39,962 bases of DNA from an uncultured bacterium (GTDB lineage Bacteria > Bacillota_I > Bacilli_A > RFN20 > CAG-826), in the NCBI GenBank assembly GCA_949296775.1, contig CASFQA010000008.1:1-39962 (forward strand), in the 5' to 3' direction. Shown here one piece after another: positions 1 through 10,975 of this stretch (position 1 is its first letter; every line of letters starts with the position of its first letter). The position numbers and the translations under genes were made by a program. The notes beneath the pieces were generated by a model, which saw only the letters and a list, made by a program, of their open reading frames with translations, was not told the DNA's origin and searched no databases.

Positions 1-247
1 TTCTTAAAGATTCAAGAGTAGGGAGTTTTCCATTATTTCCTTTGAGTCTTGATTCACCTTCTTTATAAGCAAGTTTGATAGCTTCTTTAATAGCATTAAC
101 GGTTTGTTCATCATCTTTTGGAATGATTAAGCATAAACTATATTTAGCATTGGCCTCATTTCCATTTGGATCATAAGGCTTAAATACATGAACGAATGAC
201 CATCTTGTATTTGGTCCCGTTACTACTTTTGTTGATTGATTATTCAT
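1..247 (-). CDS. DUF2815-family phage protein (3' end outside window)
   Basis: This is the first 82 codons of a leftward gene cut by the window edge. The protein starts [17 protein letters not shown] and continues with [23 protein letters not shown] and [10 protein letters not shown], a pattern I recognise from DUF2815. That is a phage early protein often found beside DUF2800 and the phage DNA polymerase, and thought to be a single-strand DNA-binding-like protein. An AAGGAGG ribosome binding site lies 9 nt before the ATG, inside the end of the upstream DUF2800 gene, so the two are co-transcribed. Family assignment comes from memory of sequence pattern. The C-terminus cannot be assessed. Confidence 0.7.
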
Positions 248-250
248 AAA

Positions 251-1393
251 TTATTTTTCCTCCTTGAATACATCAAAATCAGTATTCGCTAGGTTTAGCT
301 CTTCTCTTTTGTCACTTCTTAAAACAAGCGTCGGTTTGCCATGCGGCTTATTGACGTATTGTTCCAGAAGTGATTTGAATTTGGCTTTGCCTAGCTCTTT
401 TTCTATATCGGTGATCGAACGAAGTTTAGTGTCATAAGGATTGACGTTGTTTTCCTTTAAGACGTTTATGACGCTTCCTTCATCCGTGAACTTTCTGGTG
501 CTTCTACCCTCAACGAGCTTGAAGTTGACCCACTTCTTACCATCAAGAGCCTTAGCGACAGCAAAGTCCTTGATGTCATTTAGATATGAAGATATCTCAT
601 CTGCCTTAAGCAAGACTTCTTCGATCTCAATGTCGCTAAGCAAATTAGGGTTCCTGAATTCTTTATTTAAGATATCAAGGGCCACCTTGCTTCTTTCCTT
701 GCAGATTGCCCTAGCCTTGCAAAACCTGCACCAAGGACCGCTTCTGAATATCCCTTCGCCTTTGTCAGCAAGCTCGGCAGCTGGTTTTAGTACCTCTTCA
801 CCCCACTTAAGCAAATCGGCTTTGGTGGTTTCCCAAGTCGAGACGTTGCCGATTCTAGGTTGATAGATGGTTAGGATTATCTTCTCGAAATCATATAGGC
901 ATTCGAGTTCTTGGATTGCCCCTAAAGCATAGATTTTAAGCTGCGAATTTTCGGTGGCATCGACCTTGACCCCAAGCCCATACTTGAAGTCAATGATGTG
1001 AAGCGTCTTGTTCGTGGCGGCTAAGAAGTCGATGGTTCCGAATCCACCACCTACCCACTTGTCGTATGAAACTTGGTGTTCAACCATGACGTATGGAGCG
1101 TTTCCGCCATCCTCTTCTTTTAAGGCTTCAATTTGCTCCAAGGCGAACGAAACATAGGAATCGGTATATTCGTCCATTTCCTTATTGAAGATGGTAAGTT
1201 CTGGATACTCTAAGTTGATACCGATAGCCCTATTGAGTTTGTATTCCGCTAGGGCGTGCGCATTGCTTCCTTCTTCTGCATAGACCGAAGTCATATCTTC
1301 CATATCTTCAGTAAGCCTTGCGCTAGGCGGGCAATTGATCCACCTTTCAGAGGAACTTCCGCCTAATAGACAATGCAGTTTTTTATCTTCCAT
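251..1393 (-). CDS. DUF2800-family phage protein, Cas4/RecB-like PD-(D/E)XK nuclease fold
   Basis: A 380-residue protein of the DUF2800 family, common in Firmicute phage replication modules. The N-terminal segment SSSERWINCPPSARL (about residues 13-27) is typical of the family. A PD-(D/E)XK-like core is visible: GTIDF near residue 119, DFKYG near 135 and then QLKIYALGA. A later cysteine cluster (C-x2-C-x5-C in WCRFCKARAICKERS, near 223) resembles the Fe-S or metal cluster of Cas4/AddB-type nucleases. It is probably an exonuclease acting with phage recombination or replication. Its 3' end runs into the DUF2815 leader and its start overlaps the previous small gene by 11 bp, so it belongs to a tight leftward operon. 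Nuclease activity is inferred. Confidence 0.75.
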   Translation of the reverse strand: MEDKKLHCLLGGSSSERWINCPPSARLTEDMEDMTSVYAEEGSNAHALAEYKLNRAIGINLEYPELTIFNKEMDEYTDSYVSFALEQIEALKEEDGGNAPYVMVEHQVSYDKWVGGGFGTIDFLAATNKTLHIIDFKYGLGVKVDATENSQLKIYALGAIQELECLYDFEKIILTIYQPRIGNVSTWETTKADLLKWGEEVLKPAAELADKGEGIFRSGPWCRFCKARAICKERSKVALDILNKEFRNPNLLSDIEIEEVLLKADEISSYLNDIKDFAVAKALDGKKWVNFKLVEGRSTRKFTDEGSVINVLKENNVNPYDTKLRSITDIEKELGKAKFKSLLEQYVNKPHGKPTLVLRSDKREELNLANTDFDVFKEEK

Positions 1394-1655
1394 TGGCGAT
1401 GTCCCTCACACGGCTCAAGACTTCTTCATAGTGCTTTGGATCAAGTTCTGACAACTTATTGGCCCCAAAGCCGGTAATGATGTCTCTAATATCACTAGTG
1501 AAGCCTTTTCTAGCAAAAGATGTAAGTTCTGCACGGATTTCATCTAAAGTGATTGCGTTTTTCTCTTCCTTTTTCTCATTGAAATTAAGAAGATTTAAGG
1601 CTTCATCAATCTTGTTTTTGGCTTCTTCAAGAAGCTCGCTAATCTTTTGATTCAT
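1383..1655 (-). CDS. Small phage early protein, function unknown
   Basis: A 90-residue, mostly helical and charged protein (MNQKISELLEEAKNKIDEAL..., ending HYEEVLSRVRDIANGR). Proteins like this sit just upstream of DUF2800 in Firmicute phages and are sometimes given misleading ribosome-biogenesis names; I do not assign a function. The N-terminal half looks able to form a coiled coil. The C-terminal half, with TSFARKGFTSDIRDIITGFG, resembles a small ligand- or DNA-binding motif. AAAGAGGT precedes the ATG. It overlaps both neighbours by a few bases, consistent with translational coupling in the operon. Confidence 0.6.
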   Translation of the reverse strand: MNQKISELLEEAKNKIDEALNLLNFNEKKEEKNAITLDEIRAELTSFARKGFTSDIRDIITGFGANKLSELDPKHYEEVLSRVRDIANGR

Positions 1656-1770
1656 TTTTCTTTACCTCTTTTTCTTCTTCGTATGCGTCGCGGATAAGTT
1701 CTTCATCGCGCCAAGCTTTCCAGTCCTCTTCTTCGCTTGCATAGGAAGGCTTGCATTTAAAATCGTTCAT
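1639..1770 (-). CDS. Short acidic phage protein (43 aa), unknown
   Basis: A 43-codon reading frame beginning MNDFKCKPSYASEEEDWKAW and ending KKNESKD. It starts at an ATGA overlap with the stop of the upstream Cys-rich gene and has a GGAGG ribosome binding site 9 nt before the ATG. It ends just inside the next gene, which it overlaps. The end-to-end packing and the good ribosome binding site argue that it is real. No family recognised; it is rich in Glu, Asp and Trp. Confidence 0.55.
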   Translation of the reverse strand: MNDFKCKPSYASEEEDWKAWRDEELIRDAYEEEKEVKKNESKD

Positions 1771-1961
1771 CGTTTGTTACCTCCGCATTTACAGCCACCT
1801 GAGCAAGAACCAGAACAACCTTTGTTTTCGTTCTTTTTGTTTTTCTTGATAGCGACATCGACAACGACATCTTCAAGGTTCAATGAGAAGCGAAGTGATT
1901 TAGGTTTAGGTTCAGTCCCGAAAATGGCATTGAGTAATTTTTCTTGTTTGCTTTCTTCCAT
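1767..1961 (-). CDS. Small Cys-rich-tail phage protein, unknown
   Basis: A 64-residue protein with an N-terminal helical segment (MEESKQEKLLNAIFG), a central FSLNLEDVVVDVAIKK strand-like region and a Lys/Asn-rich linker. The end is Cys/Gly-rich: CSGSCSGGCKCGGNKR, with four Cys in eleven residues. The tail could bind a metal ion, but no standard zinc-finger spacing is present. TAGGAGGAAAC precedes the ATG. It is the first gene of the four-gene leftward run ending in DUF2815, unless the sigma-like gene upstream reads into it. Confidence 0.55.
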   Translation of the reverse strand: MEESKQEKLLNAIFGTEPKPKSLRFSLNLEDVVVDVAIKKNKKNENKGCSGSCSGGCKCGGNKR

Positions 1962-1991
1962 ATGTTTCCTCCTATCAATTAGTGAAGGTTC

Positions 1992-2025
1992 TAGATGCCC
2001 ACCGGTTGTTGAATTCGAGCATCTA
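1992..2025. repeat. 7-bp inverted repeat in the phage operon leader
   Basis: TAGATGC (1992-1998) and its exact complement GCATCTA (2019-2025) are separated by 20 nt, in the gap between the sigma-like gene and the Cys-rich gene. The gap holds no gene. The repeat could form an RNA hairpin in the leader of the downstream operon or be an operator. Short and unsupported by anything else. Confidence 0.25.
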
Positions 2026-2084
2026 CCGCCTTCATAACCTAAGGAGGTTTTGGATAGTGGTCGTCAACCAAAACTAATGTGTAT

Positions 2085-2615
2085 TTATGAATTGATTGAG
2101 TTCCAATATCCTTGGAGTTTTGCTCTCAAGTGCTCCTTTGCCTTTTCCCACTTCTTATGAGCGGCTTGCTTGGATATTCCTAAAGCACGGCCTATCTCAC
2201 TAAAAGAACAGGAATCAGCGAACATTCGAGCTACGACTTTCAGGTCTTCTGATGGCAAGGAGTCGATGGCTTCTTGCACCTTCTCTTCCTTTTCCATTCG
2301 TTCAGCATATTGAATTGGGGTTTCATCACTTGATGCAACTTCAATCCCGGCCTCTGCCAATTGTTCGATTGAGACCTTGTTCGGTTTCTTCGACCAAAAA
2401 TAAGAGCATTTGAAGCAATCCTTCTTGCACTTGATCTCAAAGCCACGTGAGCCAATGATCGTGCAATGATATTGCATCCTCTCGTAGTAATGGAGTCTCT
2501 CTTCGAATCGCTTCTCTTCGAGCATCCACTCTTCGAGGGTTGTCGGTGTTCTTTCGTCTCTACCGCCAAAAGAGGTATTGTGGCTTGTGCCACGATTGTT
2601 GAATTTTGTAGACAA
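2085..2615 (-). CDS. Sigma-70 region-4-like phage transcription regulator
   Basis: A 176-residue protein whose C-terminal third is a sigma-factor region-4-type helix-turn-helix: IDSLPSEDLKVVARMF, then SFSEIGRALGISKQAAHKKW and KAKEHLRAKL. The middle contains a Cys group (IKCKKDCFKCSYFW) that could hold a metal. It is probably a phage late or early-gene activator, or a sigma-like factor, for this leftward module. The only in-frame start with reasonable coverage is TTG at 2613-2615, and the frame is closed by a stop 27 bp further upstream. No strong ribosome binding site is visible, so the 5' end may be wrong or the gene may be slightly truncated at the junction with the defence genes. Confidence 0.6.
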   Translation of the reverse strand: MSTKFNNRGTSHNTSFGGRDERTPTTLEEWMLEEKRFEERLHYYERMQYHCTIIGSRGFEIKCKKDCFKCSYFWSKKPNKVSIEQLAEAGIEVASSDETPIQYAERMEKEEKVQEAIDSLPSEDLKVVARMFADSCSFSEIGRALGISKQAAHKKWEKAKEHLRAKLQGYWNSINS

Positions 2616-2761
2616 TTTGTTGTTCCAAGTATCGGAGCAACATCACCGTTAAGTTTTCTCGTCTACATTCCTCTCTCCGCCCGAACGGTTATCTAGAATC
2701 GAGGCGGAATTGTTAAGCTACGTCTAGCTTATGGTTAAAGTATAAATCGGGATTTTTTTAT

Positions 2762-2794
2762 ATTCTTTGGTACAACTTGGGTCATTCTTTGGTA
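2762..2794. repeat. Two 11-bp direct repeats, 22 bp apart
   Basis: ATTCTTTGGTA occurs at 2762-2772 and again at 2784-2794. The 22-bp period is about two helical turns, so a dimeric regulator could bind both copies on the same DNA face. They lie about 90 bp upstream of the -10 box of the HamA-like gene. Confidence 0.4.
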
Positions 2795-2878
2795 TCTTTT
2801 TGGGTATATAAAAATAAGTCCAAAAATGCGCTGTTTTTCGAATAAATACAGGCATTTAAAGACTTGAAAACACACTTA

Positions 2879-2887
2879 TGTTATAAT
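2879..2887 (+). promoter_or_regulatory. Extended -10 promoter of the Hachiman-like pair
   Basis: TG-T-TATAAT: a consensus -10 hexamer at 2882-2887 with the upstream TGn extension. There is no good -35 at 17 bp. The transcript would have a leader of about 55 nt ending in AAGGAA before the ATG. Confidence 0.6.
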
Positions 2888-2949
2888 AGAAAACAGGAAT
2901 TTATATAAACTTGCTTGACAAGTAAATTTGAATTGAAAGAAGGAATACA

Positions 2950-4425
2950 ATGTACAGATTCCGATTCGGTAATCTCTTTACGCTACTAGATGAAATCAAA
3001 CTGAAAAAATCTGGAAGGCTTGGCAGTCAAGTCAAACTTTATGCTGCACTCGTGAATCCCAATGATGATAGCGGTGTTTCTATAGACTCTGGAGACGTCG
3101 GCAAACTTGCTAAAGGTCAATTTAATCCAAGTGGCTATGTTCAGGAAATAATAAATAATCTATCAGTAAATGAATTGACTCAAAACTACTTATCAAATCT
3201 AATTCCTGCACTAAACCAAGCCATGTTAAAACCTCTTATTTTGGCTATCAAAAGCATTCTGGAATCCGATGCAACTATTTCACCTACACAAACATTTGCT
3301 GTGGACGATTGCAGAAAAGAATCGATAATAAACGACAATGTTATATTCCTAGCTAGATTGCTTGCATGTCTAGTCAAGGAGACGATAGGCCAACCAAATG
3401 ATAAATACGAAGGCGAAGAACTTCTTCCTAAGAAATATGTTGAAACATTTATCGATGACAACAGGATAGACAAAATAAAAATAGTAAATAAAGAGGAGGA
3501 TGTTTCTACTCCACTCGAAAAGACATTATTTACAAACACATTTAGCAGAATCTTTGAAGAAGTAAATCCAAATGGCTACTCACTTAACATCAGTAACACT
3601 AATAGATTCAAAGTTTTTGTGTTGGACATTTATAAAAAAGAAGGGTTCGAGACACAGCATCTTAGCGATTTCATAATAGAAAACATCGGTGCATATGTTC
3701 GCTCACGAAACTACGTCGCTAACTCTAAAGAGGAAGGAAATCCTTTTACTTTAGGCCATTATGCCATAAGAGAAATGAGAGCTAGGATAAAAGACAAAAC
3801 CGAAGCCTTTTCACATGTAATGACTTATACATTTATGGAGTCGGCGCTCCATGCTCCTAAGATATTCTCAGCCTATGAATTAGAACATAAATTATCTGGA
3901 GATAAAATATCAAAAATATCTGGTATTTATTTGTTACCTTATGGAAGCGTGGAAGGTTATGCCAACCAGCTTGTTTTCGGATCTTCAAACGTTAATAACT
4001 CCATAACTACTGCTATTGATAATGTTTTAGAAATAACTGCATATATTGACAAAAACGAATCCGAAATGAGAAGACATATCCATAACAATATCTTTCATTA
4101 TGGCAATAGCTTTAACGAAGATACCAAAGCCTATCTAAAAAGTGTTCTAATTCCAGATAGAAATGCATCGGTCCCTAAAATTAATTCGTTTGGCATTTTC
4201 TTTTCCTATTCTATAGATCTTTCCTCAATAGAAACAAACAATAAATATCAAATCAAAAAGGAAGTATGCGAATTGATAAACAAGGAAATTGAGCAGGCTA
4301 TTCCCTATATAGAAAGCAAAATCAAATCTATGGGACTAGACACTTATCCTTTCTATTTCTTCGTACTTCCACTTGCTGACGCCGAAAGGGCCTCGTCCGA
4401 AATAATGGACGAAGTATTAAGGTGA
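2950..4425 (+). CDS. HamA-like (DUF1837) defence protein with altered nuclease motif
   Basis: A 491-residue protein directly before a HamB-like helicase. Residues 1 to about 250 form a domain I do not recognise. The second half resembles the C-terminal domain of HamA/AbpA (DUF1837): HAPKIFS at 301-307, then SKISGIYLL at 321-329 and LVFGSSNV at 341-348, followed by a helix (AIDNVLEI) and a C-terminal DTYPFYFFVLPL strand. In studied HamA proteins this fold is a PD-(D/E)XK nuclease with an E-x-K pair. Here the equivalent place reads S-x-N, and the upstream Asp also seems absent. So the protein may be nuclease-dead or use other residues. Six bases separate it from the helicase, so the pair is an operon. 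Family assignment is by pattern, moderate. Confidence 0.55.
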   Translation: MYRFRFGNLFTLLDEIKLKKSGRLGSQVKLYAALVNPNDDSGVSIDSGDVGKLAKGQFNPSGYVQEIINNLSVNELTQNYLSNLIPALNQAMLKPLILAIKSILESDATISPTQTFAVDDCRKESIINDNVIFLARLLACLVKETIGQPNDKYEGEELLPKKYVETFIDDNRIDKIKIVNKEEDVSTPLEKTLFTNTFSRIFEEVNPNGYSLNISNTNRFKVFVLDIYKKEGFETQHLSDFIIENIGAYVRSRNYVANSKEEGNPFTLGHYAIREMRARIKDKTEAFSHVMTYTFMESALHAPKIFSAYELEHKLSGDKISKISGIYLLPYGSVEGYANQLVFGSSNVNNSITTAIDNVLEITAYIDKNESEMRRHIHNNIFHYGNSFNEDTKAYLKSVLIPDRNASVPKINSFGIFFSYSIDLSSIETNNKYQIKKEVCELINKEIEQAIPYIESKIKSMGLDTYPFYFFVLPLADAERASSEIMDEVLR

Positions 4426-4430
4426 TTTAA

Positions 4431-7043
4431 ATGGCGACAACAAGACAAAAAAGTTTCTTTGAGGATTTATTCGATGACCTTTCAAAGAATGATTATTTAT
4501 TAGAACTATATGATGAGTTATTACGAAATTACACCCGTTATATTTTCGGACGAACAATTGAGAAATTAGAAGACAAAAAAATCAAAGATTTATTGAGATT
4601 TGCAGAGATTTTATCCAATTCAATGGATGGAAACCATAAAATTTGGGCTCAGCAGATAGTAGCATTATTGGATAAATTAAATCCCAAAAATAACGAAATA
4701 GAAGATACCAAACGATATGTCTTGCTTTCATGCACGAATTTCAAAGGTCTAGGCAACGAGCTAACTCCTACCGGTGATTTTTTAGATGATGTCTCTAACG
4801 AAATAATCATGGATTCGCTAAAAATTCCTAATACCGAAAACGATCACTTCTTTTCAGAGCAAAAGGAAATCTACGACTCATTTCAAAAAGAAAGCTGCTC
4901 TTATTCTGCTCCTACTTCCATGGGCAAGTCTTTTGTCATGCGCATCTTCATCAAAGACCAAATCAAAAAAGGCTCCAATAAGAACTATGCGATTATAGTC
5001 CCTACTAAAGCCTTAATCAGCGAGGTCAAAAAATCGATTATTGAAGATATGGCAAGCGACCTTACTGAGCATGATTATCGAATAATAACAGCAGTTGGTG
5101 ATTTGGCATTGACCATCCCTCATAAATTCATATACGTAATGACGCCTGAGAGAATGCTATATCTAATAAACACCAAACCAGATCTTAAAATTGATTATCT
5201 TTTCATTGATGAAGCACACAAACTCTCTTCCAAAGATACAAGAAGTCCGCTTTATTACGACTTATTAGATAAAATCTCATCTCGTGAGCAACTTCCCTAT
5301 ATTTTCTTTTCCTCACCAAACATTCCTAATCCAGAGATTTATTTGAAGCTTATCAAAAACGCAAATTTAGAAAACAAGATCCATGTTTCCTTCTCTCCGG
5401 TTAGTCAGATCAAATATCTTATTGATTTGAAAAACGGCGGTTTAATAAGAGTTTTCAATGATTTTTCTAAGGAATTTATTCAAATAGGAAACCGAAGCTC
5501 AGCCATTAACCTGAACTCCATTATCGATGAAGTAGGCAAAAATAAGCAAAACCTAATCTATTGCTCTTCAATTGATAAGACGATGAAGGCAGCAAAAAAC
5601 TATGCTCAAAACCTACCTGACAAAACCAATCCTGAACTGGATAAATTGTCCAAAGATATAGCAACTGAAATACATAAGGATTATTTCCTAGTGAAGATAA
5701 TCAAAAAGGGTGTCGCATTTCACGTTGGATACTTGCCTGCTAACATCCGTTCACAAATAGAAAAATTATATAAAGACGGAGTCATTAATCATTTGTTCTG
5801 CACTTCCACTTTAATCGAAGGTGTCAACCTACCTGCTGATAATCTATTTATAACTAGTTATAAAGCTGGTACTTCTAGCTTTGATGAGGTTTCATTTAGA
5901 AATCTGATAGGTCGTGTCGGAAGAATCAAGTTCAACTTATTTGGAAATGTGTTTTTGATAACCCTTCGAGATGAAGCTGATAAAGATAAATCGCCAGAAA
6001 AATATTCAGAATTGCTAAAGACCGAAATACCTGAACAACAACTGTCGGCTGATGAAGTTCTTAGGCCAATAGATAAGCAAAGAATCGTAAAAGCGTTGGT
6101 TCACGAAGATTATGAAATCCTGTCTAAGCCTGATGACACGACTGCAAATAAATTCGAGATAATGCGAAAATTCCAGCTTATTCTCAAAAACGATATTCAA
6201 AGTGGCAACACATCTGCTGTAAGCGAATCTTTTAAAAACGAACTCTCGCCTGAGGAATTAAATGCAATTAAGTCAATAGATAAACCTGATAACAAAAGCA
6301 TTGATATATCACCAGATCAATATAGGAATTTAAGAGACTATATCAGCGATGGAAATTCCTACCCTGCTACTCATTTTAGCTATAACGAAATAGTCCATTT
6401 TTTAGAAAAACTTTCAGATATCTTCAAGTGGAGAGTTTACGAAAAGAAAACACTAGGAAACTGGGACTGGAATAAATATAGGCTTACTCACATCAAGTAT
6501 TACGCGACTTTATTACTTCATTGGATGCAAGGAGATAATCTAGCTTATATCATTAGAAGTGCCATTGAGTATAAAGAAAAACATAATGATACTGGAGTTT
6601 GGTTAAATAGTCATAAAATCGAGGAATACTATAATCCATACGATGAACAGCATAAAAACTACGTCATAGCCGATACTTTGAACTCACTAGATAAGGTTAT
6701 TCTTTTTAAGATTTCAAATTACTTCAGGGAATTCTCTACTGAGTATAAGAAAGTTAATAACATCGACGGAAGATTCCCTAACGATTGGTACGAATATGTC
6801 GAGTACGGAACAAACGACGATATTATCATCACGCTCCAACAATGTGGATTTGAAAGAGAACAAGCCCAATATATAAAATCACACGGTTATCTTGATCTAA
6901 ATACTCCTTCTTCTGTTGCTACTTTCACAATCAAAAAAGAAGAAATATTGAAATCAAGAGATGAAGATGTGGTTAATCAAGCTAAAGAAGCACTTATCAA
7001 TGTGCCTGAGCTATTTAAAGAAACTTTCTATTGTAATAATTGA
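4431..7043 (+). CDS. HamB-like superfamily 2 DEAD/DEAH helicase
   Basis: An 870-residue helicase. Motifs seen: Walker A SAPTSMGKS (159-167), MTPERM (motif Ib, 237-242), DEAH (260-263), FSSPN (motif III position, 293-297), CTSTLIEGVNLPA (motif V, 457-469) and NLIGRVGRI (motif VI, 491-499). This set and the size match HamB, the helicase of Hachiman anti-phage defence, which is thought to sense DNA ends or damage and release the HamA effector. The N-terminal 130 residues and the C-terminal third (after 560) have no motif I can name and probably contact HamA. It ends 9 bp from the convergent protease gene. The helicase call is firm; the Hachiman call depends on the partner. Confidence 0.75.
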   Translation: MATTRQKSFFEDLFDDLSKNDYLLELYDELLRNYTRYIFGRTIEKLEDKKIKDLLRFAEILSNSMDGNHKIWAQQIVALLDKLNPKNNEIEDTKRYVLLSCTNFKGLGNELTPTGDFLDDVSNEIIMDSLKIPNTENDHFFSEQKEIYDSFQKESCSYSAPTSMGKSFVMRIFIKDQIKKGSNKNYAIIVPTKALISEVKKSIIEDMASDLTEHDYRIITAVGDLALTIPHKFIYVMTPERMLYLINTKPDLKIDYLFIDEAHKLSSKDTRSPLYYDLLDKISSREQLPYIFFSSPNIPNPEIYLKLIKNANLENKIHVSFSPVSQIKYLIDLKNGGLIRVFNDFSKEFIQIGNRSSAINLNSIIDEVGKNKQNLIYCSSIDKTMKAAKNYAQNLPDKTNPELDKLSKDIATEIHKDYFLVKIIKKGVAFHVGYLPANIRSQIEKLYKDGVINHLFCTSTLIEGVNLPADNLFITSYKAGTSSFDEVSFRNLIGRVGRIKFNLFGNVFLITLRDEADKDKSPEKYSELLKTEIPEQQLSADEVLRPIDKQRIVKALVHEDYEILSKPDDTTANKFEIMRKFQLILKNDIQSGNTSAVSESFKNELSPEELNAIKSIDKPDNKSIDISPDQYRNLRDYISDGNSYPATHFSYNEIVHFLEKLSDIFKWRVYEKKTLGNWDWNKYRLTHIKYYATLLLHWMQGDNLAYIIRSAIEYKEKHNDTGVWLNSHKIEEYYNPYDEQHKNYVIADTLNSLDKVILFKISNYFREFSTEYKKVNNIDGRFPNDWYEYVEYGTNDDIIITLQQCGFEREQAQYIKSHGYLDLNTPSSVATFTIKKEEILKSRDEDVVNQAKEALINVPELFKETFYCNN

Positions 7044-7052
7044 TAAATTGTT

Positions 7053-7859
7053 TCAATGCTTATAAATTAATTTTAGTAAATCATCAAAAACTAGAAGTTG
7101 ATTTGCTTTAATAACAACTCCCAAGTGATTAGGTATAAAAGAATCATCTGAAAGTTTATAGGTGCTCGTTTCTATCTTTTCCACTTTTATTTCGTTGCCT
7201 ATAAAGTGTTTATATGTGCTTGATATAATTCCTAAAAATTTAAATCTTCTACCTAATGATAAAGAATTTTTACCATTTTGAAACAAACCGTTGCTATATA
7301 AATAAACGGGTGAACCACTAGAGCCACCATACACTGACGCATCGATTAAAAACAAAGGTTTTCCTTCAAAATTATACTTCACTGATGTTGCTGTGAGTCC
7401 TTTTCTTACAATCGGTTTATTATTAACTTTGTCATAAATCCAATCAGGATATCCAACAAAAATTACATCTTCGATATCAGATATGAAGCTATAGTCAGTT
7501 TCGCTTATTATTAAATCACGTGACAATCCTTTGAAAAATACATTTGTTCCTTGCATTTTAAGAGTATTAAGTAGTTTCCCAATAGGCAATACGCAAAGAT
7601 CGATATCAGAATTTGGGTGCATAATCCACTGCGATTCAAAATTATCAATTTTACTTACAATATGTTCGCCAATCAGTGATTCACCGGAAATGGCGTTTTT
7701 AACAACATGCTTATTTGTAACAATAGCAGGTATACATGTTTTATTTTGAGAATCAGTACAAAAATTAAAGAAAAATCCTGTACCACTTCCTTTAAATTGG
7801 TCAGATATCTTAGTTTCTATTCTTATAGTCGTGTTTAAAATTTCTTCATCTAAAGTCAT
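7053..7859 (-). CDS. Trypsin-like (S1-fold) serine protease, cytoplasmic
   Basis: A 268-residue protein with a chymotrypsin/HtrA-type catalytic set: GSGTGFFF at the start of the barrel, His in VTNKHVV (H51), Asp in NSDIDLCVLP (85 or 87) and Ser in GGSSGSPVY (S181). No signal peptide, membrane segment or PDZ domain is seen, so it is likely cytoplasmic. It is the last gene of the leftward restriction operon, 1 bp after the GIY-YIG gene. Stand-alone trypsin-like proteases of this kind recur in defence islands, where some act as effectors triggered by partner proteins. Whether it belongs functionally to the restriction genes or to the convergent Hachiman-like pair is open. Fold assignment is confident; role is inference. 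Confidence 0.75.
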   Translation of the reverse strand: MTLDEEILNTTIRIETKISDQFKGSGTGFFFNFCTDSQNKTCIPAIVTNKHVVKNAISGESLIGEHIVSKIDNFESQWIMHPNSDIDLCVLPIGKLLNTLKMQGTNVFFKGLSRDLIISETDYSFISDIEDVIFVGYPDWIYDKVNNKPIVRKGLTATSVKYNFEGKPLFLIDASVYGGSSGSPVYLYSNGLFQNGKNSLSLGRRFKFLGIISSTYKHFIGNEIKVEKIETSTYKLSDDSFIPNHLGVVIKANQLLVFDDLLKLIYKH

Positions 7860-7860
7860 A

Positions 7861-8538
7861 TTATTCTATCATCCCCAGTTCTTTCATCTTCTCTTCTCGC
7901 ATCTCGCCTAAAGTCTTTTTATTATCAACCAACCTCATGAGAGCATAAATTTGAATGGCTTTGCAGCCGAAGACATTAGCAGACATCGTTTCCCCTTTGT
8001 ATTCGACGTATTTTCCATCAAGTATTGTTGCTACTTCATCTGGGTGAGAAATAACACAAATCTTATCACCTGGTTTAACTAATCCTTGTTCGATCATCCA
8101 ATCCAACTTAGGAAGCTTAGTTTGAGTTCTTTTCGTTCTTATTTCTTCTGCTTCTTCTTCGTCTCTAATTTGTTTTGCGGATGGTTCAACCAAAACTAGA
8201 TGATCTTCTAATCCGTTTATCTGAGCAATGGTTTCAAGAATAGAATAAGCATCAGCAGGTGTCATATTATAAAATTCACGTTTTCTTGTCTTACCATCAA
8301 ACTCCTCAATACTTCTAAGATTAGGATTAAGCTTATCGATCATTTGATGCAGCTTCATGTCAGTGAGTCTTTTTGGAACTTCATAATAAGCATAAAGCCT
8401 AAAAGCAAAAGGAATACATTCACTCCTATTGAGTTCCTTTAGTCTTTTATTTACATCGTCTGCATATCCTATCTTCACATAGTCTGGGAACGATGGGTTG
8501 GTAAGTATGTAAATTACGCCTTGTGATTTAGTTTCCAT
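7861..8538 (-). CDS. GIY-YIG (T5orf172-type) protein with RAMA-like C-terminal domain
   Basis: A 225-residue protein. The N-terminal about 110 residues have the T5orf172/MUG113 form of the GIY-YIG nuclease fold: GVIYILTNPSFPDYVKIGYA, then VNKRLKELN and a conserved LHQMIDKL helix, ending at REFYNMTPADA. After a charged linker, residues about 143-205 (LDWMIEQGLVKPGDKICVI, then ATILDGKYVEYKGETMS and a final hydrophobic helix) look like a RAMA/DUF4357 module. That module is often attached to restriction and methylase proteins and is proposed to recognise modified DNA. The gene starts immediately after the methyltransferase stop codon, so they are co-expressed. A nicking or modification-sensing accessory of the restriction system is a reasonable inference. 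Confidence 0.7.
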   Translation of the reverse strand: METKSQGVIYILTNPSFPDYVKIGYADDVNKRLKELNRSECIPFAFRLYAYYEVPKRLTDMKLHQMIDKLNPNLRSIEEFDGKTRKREFYNMTPADAYSILETIAQINGLEDHLVLVEPSAKQIRDEEEAEEIRTKRTQTKLPKLDWMIEQGLVKPGDKICVISHPDEVATILDGKYVEYKGETMSANVFGCKAIQIYALMRLVDNKKTLGEMREEKMKELGMIE

Positions 8539-9510
8539 TTATTTATTTTCCTCTGCTTCATTAAAACCATCTATTGAACTTAAAGAATTTAAGAAATCTT
8601 CTATATTATCTACGATTACAAAATTAAACTTTTTATCGGAATTTATCTTCTGCATGTTTTCCAAATGTTTATTAAAATATGAAGATGTATTCTCGTCATT
8701 ATCAACTAAAATTGCATGGCGACCTTCCTCTATGCAAACTCTACCAGTAGTTCCACTTCCAGCAAAAAAATCTAAAACTATAGAGCCAGGATATGAAAGC
8801 GAACGGACAAATCTACGAATAATTTCAAGAGGTTTTTGCGTAGGATGGCCGACGCGTTCCAGTGAATTTCCGTTAAGCCTTCCTATTTCCCATACATTCG
8901 TAGGGTTTTTTCCTTTTTTTACATTCTCGGGAACTAAACGTGGATCTCTTAATGCTTTTTCTAATTCCTCTGGGGAATACTGCACTCTAACAGAATCTAA
9001 ATCAAAATAATATTTATCAGTTTTCACTAACCATATAGCTTCTTCATGCCTGTTTGCAAAATATCGGTGTGCAGACATACCATTTTTATAGTACCAGACA
9101 ATCGTATTTACTAATTTCCATTTAGTGAAATGACGACAATGATAAATGATTTCAGTTAAATCTCCAGACCTTTCGTCTCTAAATTGAGTCCCACCAAATA
9201 TAACAAGATTACCACTTTTAGTTAAAACTCTATAGGCCTCATCTAACCATGTCTTTGCCCATTCCATATAATTACCATAATTATCCCAATTAGCTAAATC
9301 CAAATTATATGGCGGATCAATTAAAATAAGTTGAACCGATTCGTCTGGTAATTGTTTTAATTGTTTAACACAGTCGTCGATTTTCAACAAAATCAAAGTT
9401 TTATCAGGCTTTTTAAAATCTATGCTACTTTTGTTTTTTAAATTTTCTTTATTGCTATGAAGAATTGATCTCAGAGCTGAATTTCTGTGTGATTTATTAT
9501 GAATTGCCAT
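8539..9510 (-). CDS. RsrI-type adenine-N6 DNA methyltransferase, predicted GAATTC
   Basis: A 323-residue beta-class DNA methyltransferase. The catalytic motif IV DPPYN comes first (LILIDPPYNL, about residue 63). The AdoMet motif DFFAGSGTTG is near the C-terminus, the order expected for the beta class. The sequence between them closely tracks M.RsrI as I remember it: NGMSAHRYFANRHEEAIW, KYYFDLDSVR, KGKNPTNVW and RLNGNSLERVGHPTQKP. M.RsrI methylates the inner adenines of GAATTC. This differs from M.EcoRI, although the neighbouring endonuclease is EcoRI-like. An AGAGG ribosome binding site lies in the 11-bp gap after the endonuclease gene. It protects the host from that enzyme. Confidence 0.88.
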   Translation of the reverse strand: MAIHNKSHRNSALRSILHSNKENLKNKSSIDFKKPDKTLILLKIDDCVKQLKQLPDESVQLILIDPPYNLDLANWDNYGNYMEWAKTWLDEAYRVLTKSGNLVIFGGTQFRDERSGDLTEIIYHCRHFTKWKLVNTIVWYYKNGMSAHRYFANRHEEAIWLVKTDKYYFDLDSVRVQYSPEELEKALRDPRLVPENVKKGKNPTNVWEIGRLNGNSLERVGHPTQKPLEIIRRFVRSLSYPGSIVLDFFAGSGTTGRVCIEEGRHAILVDNDENTSSYFNKHLENMQKINSDKKFNFVIVDNIEDFLNSLSSIDGFNEAEENK

Positions 9511-9521
9511 TAGTAAAACCT

Positions 9522-10355
9522 CTATTTTTTTGTAAGTTGTTTGAATAAATCTTTACCTAACATATTTAATGATGTTCTCGAAATATCAAGCATTACACGT
9601 ACCATTTCATCTTTATCCCATCTCTCTCCATTAGCCTGTGTGTAAATCGAAGTTGCCTGAAGCATTATCGTTCTGCCATTGCACAGAACATACTTATTTT
9701 TGCAAAGGTTAGTATTAAGTGGCATGCCATAATTGGCGGCTGTAAGCCTATCTAGTCGATTCAAAGCACCATTATTGTATGTTAATGTAATTTTTCGCCC
9801 ATCGGGTCTTTCAATTGTTACATCGTGAGTTAAAAAATTAGAACCTTCCAAAAACAAGACATAAGGAAAATGAGCTTCATTAAGCATAAAATTCGCTATT
9901 TCTGAGATATTCTTATGAGAACGTTCAATAGCATTCCCTGCAACCATTAAATCTTGGTCATTATTTTTGCCTACTAATATGCCTTTCCTTATATTTTCAA
10001 TATCTTTTCCTTGATGTTTCGCTTCTGAAACTAAAATAACTCTCCAATTTCCATAATCGTCTAAAACTTCGATTAAACCACCATCCGGCTTGATATTTGC
10101 ATTTTGAACAAACAATGTTTGTCCTAAAGATGGATCGATTTTTCTTAGCGCTTCATTAATTTCTTTTTTTGAAATTTCTGGTCTATAGCGAAAAGTAAGC
10201 ATTGGATATTCTTGCTCCAACAATGACTTAACGCCATACTGATTGTCAGAAACTTCTTTATCGTGAATTTGTGCCTCCTCACCGAAAATGCCAATTACTC
10301 CGTGGGAATGTTTATGCTGTTCAGTTAGTCTTCTCGATTGATTCTTTTTTGCCAT
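9522..10355 (-). CDS. EcoRI-family type II restriction endonuclease, predicted GAATTC
   Basis: Starting at the ATG that follows AGAGGTGAAGAGA, the protein has 277 residues, the same length as EcoRI, and it aligns with EcoRI as I recall it with almost no gaps. Catalytic residues fall at identical positions: D91 (NIKPDGG), E111 and K113 (SEAKHQGKD). The GAATTC-recognition region is conserved: LMVAGNAIERSHKNISEIAN with M137, N141, E144 and R145, and NRLDRLTAANYGMP with R200 and R203. It should therefore cut GAATTC. The longer reading frame from a GTG three codons upstream would start inside the ribosome binding site and is rejected. It follows an HTH gene by 17 bp and precedes the methyltransferase. 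The AT-rich base use fits acquisition by transfer. Confidence 0.93.
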   Translation of the reverse strand: MAKKNQSRRLTEQHKHSHGVIGIFGEEAQIHDKEVSDNQYGVKSLLEQEYPMLTFRYRPEISKKEINEALRKIDPSLGQTLFVQNANIKPDGGLIEVLDDYGNWRVILVSEAKHQGKDIENIRKGILVGKNNDQDLMVAGNAIERSHKNISEIANFMLNEAHFPYVLFLEGSNFLTHDVTIERPDGRKITLTYNNGALNRLDRLTAANYGMPLNTNLCKNKYVLCNGRTIMLQATSIYTQANGERWDKDEMVRVMLDISRTSLNMLGKDLFKQLTKK

Positions 10356-10372
10356 TCTCTTCACCTCTTTAA

Positions 10373-10567
10373 TTAATCATCTAATTTCATGCCGATCTCA
10401 TTGAAGAGAGCGACTAACTTTTTCTTGGTTTCCATGTTTGGTTCGAATTTGCCTCTTTCCCAACGAGAAATAGAAACAAAACTAACATTCAATATTTTAG
10501 CAAGTTCCTCTTGGGTTAAGAATTTTCTCTCTCGATACTCTCTAATCTTTTTAGCGTAATCAAACAT
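10373..10567 (-). CDS. XRE-family HTH regulator, C-protein-like
   Basis: A 64-residue single-domain Cro/C1-type helix-turn-helix protein: MFDYAKKIREYRERKFLTQ, then EELAKILNVSFVSISRWERG and a final KKLVALFNEIG helix. It is the first gene of the restriction operon, with GAGGTGACC as ribosome binding site. Controller (C) proteins of type II systems have this size, position and fold; they delay endonuclease expression until methylation is complete. The EcoRI and RsrI systems I know of lack such a protein, so this is a variation. It could also be a regulator captured from the surrounding mobile element. Operator not proven; candidate repeats lie just upstream. Confidence 0.8.
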   Translation of the reverse strand: MFDYAKKIREYRERKFLTQEELAKILNVSFVSISRWERGKFEPNMETKKKLVALFNEIGMKLDD

Positions 10568-10578
10568 ATGGTCACCTC

Positions 10579-10606
10579 ATTATCACTAAGCAGTATTTTA
10601 ACACAA
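10579..10606 (-). promoter_or_regulatory. Promoter of the HTH-restriction-methylase operon
   Basis: Read on the minus strand: TTGTGT (-35), 16-bp spacer, GATAAT (-10), then GAGGTGACC and the ATG of the HTH gene. The motif GTGA occurs twice, 11 bp apart, across the -10 and ribosome binding site, which could let the HTH protein autoregulate. Confidence 0.5.
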
Positions 10607-10675
10607 AATCATTACAATTTCGATATTTAAAGGAACTTTTATGAGATTTTTTATTAGAAAACGTAGGGGGTATCA

Positions 10676-10751
10676 TTTCTCTAGTAGGGTATCGTTTTTC
10701 TAGTAGAGAAACGTTTATCTAGTAGGCTTTCATTTTTCTAGTAGAACCAAA
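10676..10751. repeat. Four tandem 19-bp iteron-like repeats
   Basis: CTAGTAG begins at 10681, 10700, 10719 and 10738, an exact 19-bp period. Each unit has the form TTTnTCTAGTAG followed by seven variable bases. An inverted copy, CTACTAG, lies at 10792-10798. The conserved core with variable remainder looks like an array of protein-binding sites. It lies about 70 bp upstream of the restriction operon promoter and next to the tRNA-Leu 3' end. It could be a C-protein operator array, replication iterons or excisionase sites of the mobile element. Confidence 0.75.
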
Positions 10752-10798
10752 TTTTAAAAATCCGTATCCGTCGGTTTGAACCAAATTTTATCTACTAG
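10744..10798. repeat. 13-bp direct repeat flanked by inverted CTAGTAG
   Basis: GAACCAAATTTTA occurs at 10744-10756 and 10778-10790. The first copy is preceded by CTAGTAG and the second is followed by TCTACTAG, so the two heptamers face each other around the repeated 13-mers. It forms the tRNA-proximal end of the 19-bp array. Confidence 0.6.
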
Positions 10799-10890
10799 CA
10801 AAACGCCAAAAATTAAAAAAAGCCCGATTTCTCGAGCAAATATCGTTCATTTTGAGACCATTACTTTGTATCAAAATGTTAGTTATAAGA

Positions 10891-10975
<85 letters not shown>

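Follow-up and report, generated by a model that had tools for sequence, protein, structure and literature searches.

What is the strictly periodic repeat array that lies between an EcoRI-type restriction operon and a tRNA-Leu gene in an uncultured bacterium of the Bacilli? The window analysed here is a whole contig of 39,962 nt, and anything to the left of its base 1 is missing. An earlier note had described a CTAGTAG array with exact 19-bp steps, joined to a 13-bp direct repeat and an inverted CTACTAG, had read it as protein-binding sites, and had offered three possible roles for it: a controller operator, a set of replication iterons, or accessory sites for recombination. The description itself was confirmed throughout. 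CTAGTAG starts at 10681, 10700, 10719, and 10738, the direct repeat GAACCAAATTTTA occupies 10744-10756 and 10778-10790, and the inverted copy, CTACTAG, lies at 10792-10798. The first four copies below were placed by sequence and left-end comparison; the fifth is kept in 54 of 73 left ends.

10738..10744, + strand: outward-facing copy 1, closest to the tRNA
10719..10725, + strand: outward-facing copy 2
10700..10706, + strand: outward-facing copy 3
10681..10687, + strand: outward-facing copy 4, innermost
10792..10798, - strand: inward-facing copy of the 7-mer (CTACTAG on the + strand)

Among 100 first-order Markov copies of window 1-10890, none contained a 7-mer four times at constant spacing; the best result, three evenly spaced 7-mers, was seen in one copy of the 100. 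Within its own genome, the doublet pattern of the array occurs only at this site, and the window's other three tRNA genes, all tRNA-Ser, stand without an array. Because the doublet recurs with nearly unchanged 12-nt spacers in 13 of 96 genomes searched (own genome counted), the array is, judged by its sequence, not a product of chance. The search of relatives for the array and its neighbours, which the earlier note had recommended, located it in other genomes behind tRNA or tmRNA genes and with differing cargo.

The array is the inner, subterminal part of a conserved block of approximately 230 bp that reaches the tRNA at 10892 and starts exactly after the CCA of tRNA-Leu, a setting that the earlier note does not mention. 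In the window, this left end runs from 10892 down to about 10670, behind the CCA of tRNA-Leu(gag) as called by ARAGORN. Its parts follow in a fixed order: CA-TCTTATAACTAACATTTTGATAC, a terminator-like hairpin, the inward copy of the 7-mer, and the outward copies.

10891..10975, - strand: tRNA-Leu(gag), the docking site (ARAGORN; left-end start at offset 0)
10868..10890, - strand: left tip TCTTATAACTAACATTTTGATAC, an imperfect inverted repeat of the right-end tips (alignment; consensus of 86 left ends)
10814..10837, - strand: terminator-like hairpin GCTCGA-GAAA-TCGGGC plus T run (left-end comparison)

A perfect 6-bp stem with a tetraloop and T run is found in 61 of 83 left ends, and 99% of cells in the hairpin are paired, with covariation not clearly beyond that of shuffles. 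Array statistics were taken from the 73 left ends whose sequence extends over 300 nt or more, and these yield the unit consensus GGTATCGTTTTTCTAGTAG. Three or more outward copies are present in 39 of these. Not all surviving left ends retain the array: 17 of the 73 have no outward copy and 19 have no inward copy. The first outward copy stands at +142 from the insertion point in 32 of the 56 left ends having one, and the 112 copy-to-copy steps measure 19 bp in 86 cases and 20 bp in 22. A fixed phase to the insertion point, with about two helical turns per step, would point to a recombination complex, and we read the array as the putative binding sites of such a complex. Of the three roles proposed earlier, that of recombination accessory sites fits these fixed distances.

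Docking was scored on a duplicate-free set, from which nine loci had been dropped before counting (L074, L082, L085, L108, L109, L110, L120, L125, and L132); the same set was used for the pairing, array, HTH, hairpin, and consensus counts. The tip is included in 86 left ends, and 51 of these start at offset 0 from the CCA of a tRNA or tmRNA gene called by ARAGORN. The targets are nine tRNA isotypes plus tmRNA: Leu (15), Trp (12), Ser (8), Arg (4), tmRNA (3), Thr, Met, Pro, and Ala (2 each), and Lys (1). A further 20 lie directly behind the right end of another element, that is, in tandem. The program placed the remaining 15 in neither class; by eye, five of them follow tRNA 3' ends (L073, L106, L111, L116, and L131), and several others follow diverged right ends. 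Most loci were found with a pattern starting with CA, and the CA is therefore not independent evidence. The neighbouring tRNA was rightly presumed to serve for attachment, but the array belongs to a family using many tRNA genes.

The family lives in little-studied gut bacteria. The core pattern was found in 73 stretches of a species collection (84,980 species), representing 50 assembly prefixes by our own count; by title, these are Bacilli-type metagenome assemblies, with one Clostridia, one Eubacteriales, and many labelled only "bacterium". Across the order, 75 of 279 genomes contain the 107-nt left end, as do 54 of the 150 good genomes; these figures count weak partial matches as well. The genome of the window itself carries two more intact-looking left ends, at tRNA-Arg and tmRNA, plus one diverged copy. 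Comparison with close genomes of the same genus revealed differing content at one tRNA-Ser and no clean empty site.

Two more copies, also facing outward, are found in right ends, whose tip is similar to the tRNA T-loop. They finish with GTATYAAnnCGATAGCACAAAGACA (...GCACAAAGACA), and 38 of 41 end in CA, the other 3 in TA. Where elements stand in tandem, the joined tips form an imperfect inverted repeat of 23+2+23 bp with CA in the middle, a layout judged by eye. When the outer ten bases of the right tip were compared with the tRNA T-loop region, register 0 was the best of 21 offsets (0.403 vs. <=0.326); over the whole 22 nt compared with tRNA ends, register 0 was not the best (0.274, against 0.321 at +5). 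The match of the outer ten bases may thus be taken as a modest signal. A hairpin followed by a T run was seen by eye after some right ends (L035, L080, L103, and L117), which is what the displaced terminator of a tRNA or tmRNA gene would be expected to look like.

Both ends were found within one locus for 22 elements, of 966 to 4,766 bp; of the 23 intervals initially paired, one in L047 (12.5 kb) was judged to be falsely paired and was excluded. Cargo differs among these two-ended elements and often consists of defence genes. Scans of hand-picked proteins, one or a few per cassette kind, covered 20 proteins by Pfam and 10 by PADLOC: the Pfam matches include DUF1016/YhcG, HipA, Schlafen-AlbA, RhuM, MutH-like, an iron ABC permease, and GNAT, among others, and eight of the ten PADLOC queries match defence or candidate-defence models. 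One larger element, about 8.9 kb long and extending across L097 and L101, has a type I restriction system as cargo. We saw no recombinase in any of the 22 two-ended elements.

Evidence of movement comes from the same cassette at different sites. For example, one cassette stands at tRNA-Thr (L051, 9870 to 11985) and at tRNA-Arg (L126, 5211 to 7306) in different genomes; the two copies are 97% identical, and the identity begins within the CCA, stops at the last A of the right end, and does not extend further. Likewise, a MerR-hydrolase cassette is found at tmRNA (L043), at tRNA-Ser (L087 and L047), and in tandem (L117), with 95-98% identity. In another pair (L060, 1367-3766, and L071, 981-3493), the ends can apparently be exchanged, since the cargo is 98% identical and the left ends are 86% identical.

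In the window, 2950-10364 forms a dense defence block of Hachiman HamA/HamB, PDC-S45, PDC-S57, and EcoRI-type restriction-modification genes.

10373..10567, - strand: small XRE-type HTH gene, cargo (PF01381, 7e-13; similar gene in 8 of 64 elements)
9522..10364, - strand: EcoRI-type restriction endonuclease, cargo (PF02963, 2.5e-136)
8539..9510, - strand: N6/N4 DNA methylase, cargo (PF01555, 1.5e-55)
7861..8538, - strand: T5orf172 protein, PDC-S57 (domain and defence model match)
7053..7859, - strand: trypsin-like protein, PDC-S45 (domain and defence model match)
4431..7043, + strand: HamB helicase of Hachiman (1e-297), membership in the same element uncertain
2950..4425, + strand: HamA of Hachiman (domain and defence model match), membership in the same element uncertain

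Window 1-2615 holds phage early genes (an ssDNA-binding/annealing protein, a DUF2800 exonuclease, and a sigma-like regulator) with a GC content above that of the defence block. No right end was found for the window's element, the only likeness being an insignificant one at 2836-2851.

Our main reading, to which we assign a probability of roughly 0.75, is that a mobile gene cassette has its left end here and that the array, in a subterminal position, provides its predicted protein-binding sites. More broadly, we read the family as an integron-like cassette system whose members would be moved in trans. A cassette would leave as a circle whose ends are joined over 23+2+23 bp in the order right tip-CA-left tip. 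A recombinase acting in trans would be directed by the CTAGTAG copies, phased at 19 bp, that lie at the two ends (on the left four outward and one inward, on the right two outward), and strand exchange would take place at the CA. One conserved half of the target may suffice, either the T-arm of a tRNA gene with its CCA or a similar right end. Because the left end brings its own terminator, the tRNA transcript should still stop after insertion.

Which enzyme might move the cassettes was approached through four recombinase and transposase families. Serine recombinases (PF00239) occur in 36 of the 75 genomes with cassettes and in 85 of the 204 without (intersection counted by hand), and none was found in G000, G117, G268, or G271. 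The Y1 transposase is present in 3 of 39 cassette genomes and 9 of 24 others; for the IS110 DEDD transposase, the figures are 9 of 39 at E<=0.001, with 5 over the cut-off, and 9 of 24. All three were rejected as the cassette enzyme, as none is associated with cassette presence. Tyrosine recombinases are limited to two proteins of about 300 aa in 7 of 13 cassette genomes; this pair falls into diverged Xer-like groups in a tree from which 5 of 33 rows were left out (three with no frame and two partial) and which, with the L050 protein, has 29 rows. In the near-complete genomes G117, G268, and G271 (the last a single contig), a search of the four families yields no candidates but the pair. Additional tyrosine recombinases, in G041, G061, G083, G105, G119, and G000, were also set aside, having no full left or right end beside them.

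A 267-aa tyrosine recombinase is the only recombinase kind found before a right end (L050 and L101). It was rejected as the cassette enzyme and is more likely an hsdS invertase, because pieces of hsdS adjoin its gene in L101 and L182. A type I restriction cassette with extra hsdS pieces is seen in L101 (799-4738, with L097) and in L182, and its 267-aa recombinase is near-identical across families; the protein is likely an hsdS invertase travelling in the cassette. For the cassettes themselves, we infer movement in trans at the CA by the Xer-like pair, a helper, or another enzyme.

The alternative that survives best holds that the cassettes are satellite-like hitchhikers of a helper phage, ICE, or plasmid, which supplies the recombinase and is absent from most genomes. 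The serine recombinase counts above agree with this, in that no resident dedicated recombinase tracks the cassettes, and trans-mobilised elements are common (PMC11389934). However, the left end is absent from 50,697 phage and 72,556 plasmid records, the exact end and array patterns have no match in viral contigs, and full ends are missing beside the extra tyrosine recombinases examined. A helper is thus a genuine possibility, if short of a probable one.

Somewhat unlikely, to our minds, is the more specific proposal that a host XerC/XerD-like pair moves the cassettes and that the array provides its accessory sites. IMEX elements and the CTX phage use Xer in this manner, and the proposal draws on the genomes in which the pair stands alone, among them the three that are also without serine recombinase, Y1, and IS110 matches. 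Against it, the junction is only weakly like a dif, by eye and relative to a general dif sequence rather than these genomes' own. Furthermore, the Xer overlap is 6 bp, from which heterologous junction bases would be expected, and none was seen.

It is improbable that the ends are just the usual attachment sites of prophages whose integrase has been lost and from which tRNA use was inherited. The 3' ends of tRNA genes are standard phage targets, and phage early genes do lie at window 1-2615; yet the two-ended elements of 1-5 kb contain no phage genes that we could see, stand in tandem, and occupy many tRNA types with one shared end sequence, whereas the identity between a phage attachment site and its target is usually longer. 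Controller proteins bind repeats, and about 110 bp separate the array from the HTH gene downstream of it, as would suit an operator through which the small HTH protein controls the EcoRI-type operon. This role from the earlier note does not fit and is very improbable: the array is not the private operator of a gene that occurs in just 8 of 64 elements, its place and phase are unchanged with unrelated cargo of all kinds, and it keeps a fixed distance from the tRNA end rather than from a start codon. The other role, a replication iteron set serving as the element's origin, is least credible of all, because the iteron-like direct repeats with constant spacing are accompanied by no replication-initiator gene seen in the 22 two-ended elements and two copies lie at the opposite end too.

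The reading as the left end of a mobile cassette invites comparison with known systems. Integrons are the main known case of cassette capture by bacteria, and the likeness to integron cassettes and CALINs is considerable: small cargo cassettes, exact junctions, no internal recombinase, tandem arrays (20 of 86 left ends), and, as proposed here, movement in trans. In contrast to the single-strand hairpin of integron attC sites, three joined ends gave no significant single-strand fold (z -1.26, -0.68, and -1.63). No integron integrase was found, 7 of 13 cassette genomes holding only the Xer-like pair, and where an integron has one attI, these cassettes dock at many tRNA and tmRNA genes. With tycheposons and other tRNA islands they share cargo and insertion at the 3' ends of several tRNA genes (51 of 86 at offset 0). 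Tycheposons, as described (PMC10872708), are 4-200 kb long and possess a tyrosine recombinase, whereas the 22 elements measured here are 1-5 kb with none seen. One end sequence, moreover, serves all nine isotypes and tmRNA, unlike in tRNA islands. The parts resemble both, yet defining features of integron cassettes (an attC-type fold and an integrase) and of tRNA islands (a tyrosine recombinase of their own) were looked for and not found.

Like IMEX, the cassettes encode no recombinase and could use host XerCD, but IMEX elements insert at dif and these insert at tRNA ends. As in MITEs and other trans-mobilised elements, the ends alone would suffice, with the enzyme acting in trans; the cassettes differ in their protein-coding cargo, site-specific docking, and phased arrays of predicted binding sites. 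The attachment site of a large serine integrase has a 2-bp core and half-sites of about 25 bp, a layout that the joined tips share by eye (23+2+23, CA in the middle), but the corresponding PF00239 gene is not associated with the cassettes. The same is true of an IS200/605-like Y1 or an IS110-like DEDD enzyme acting in trans.

No description of this system was found in the open-licence literature searched, and there is a real chance that the family is of a new kind; in style it looks akin to the integron, and it appears to be unreported. That it amounts to a second natural cassette-capture system beside the integron, with iteron-bearing ends, many tRNA and tmRNA docking genes recognised via their shared T-arm and CCA, tandem stacking, and movement in trans, possibly by the host Xer pair, is a tentative proposal to which we give slightly less than even odds. 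If true, enzyme-less shuttling of defence and other genes into tRNA genes would explain gene gain by small gut Bacilli. The ends also offer exact landmarks for annotating cassettes in many uncultured genomes, and they pose a clear question, namely what protein, from the host or from a helper, binds to CTAGTAG and cleaves at the CA.

Several smaller observations accompany these results. In G105, a partial left-end match of 19 bits (L211, 2303-2341) lies a few bases after tRNA-Phe and near a tyrosine recombinase. Behind a tRNA-Trp in genome G028, an insertion of approximately 1.45 kb is found within a left end (L204, 9811-11267). Finally, L044 (8150-10201) and L202 (6529-6600), behind tRNA-Trp and tRNA-Ser, possess other tips with terminator hairpins of their own and may represent further left-end families.
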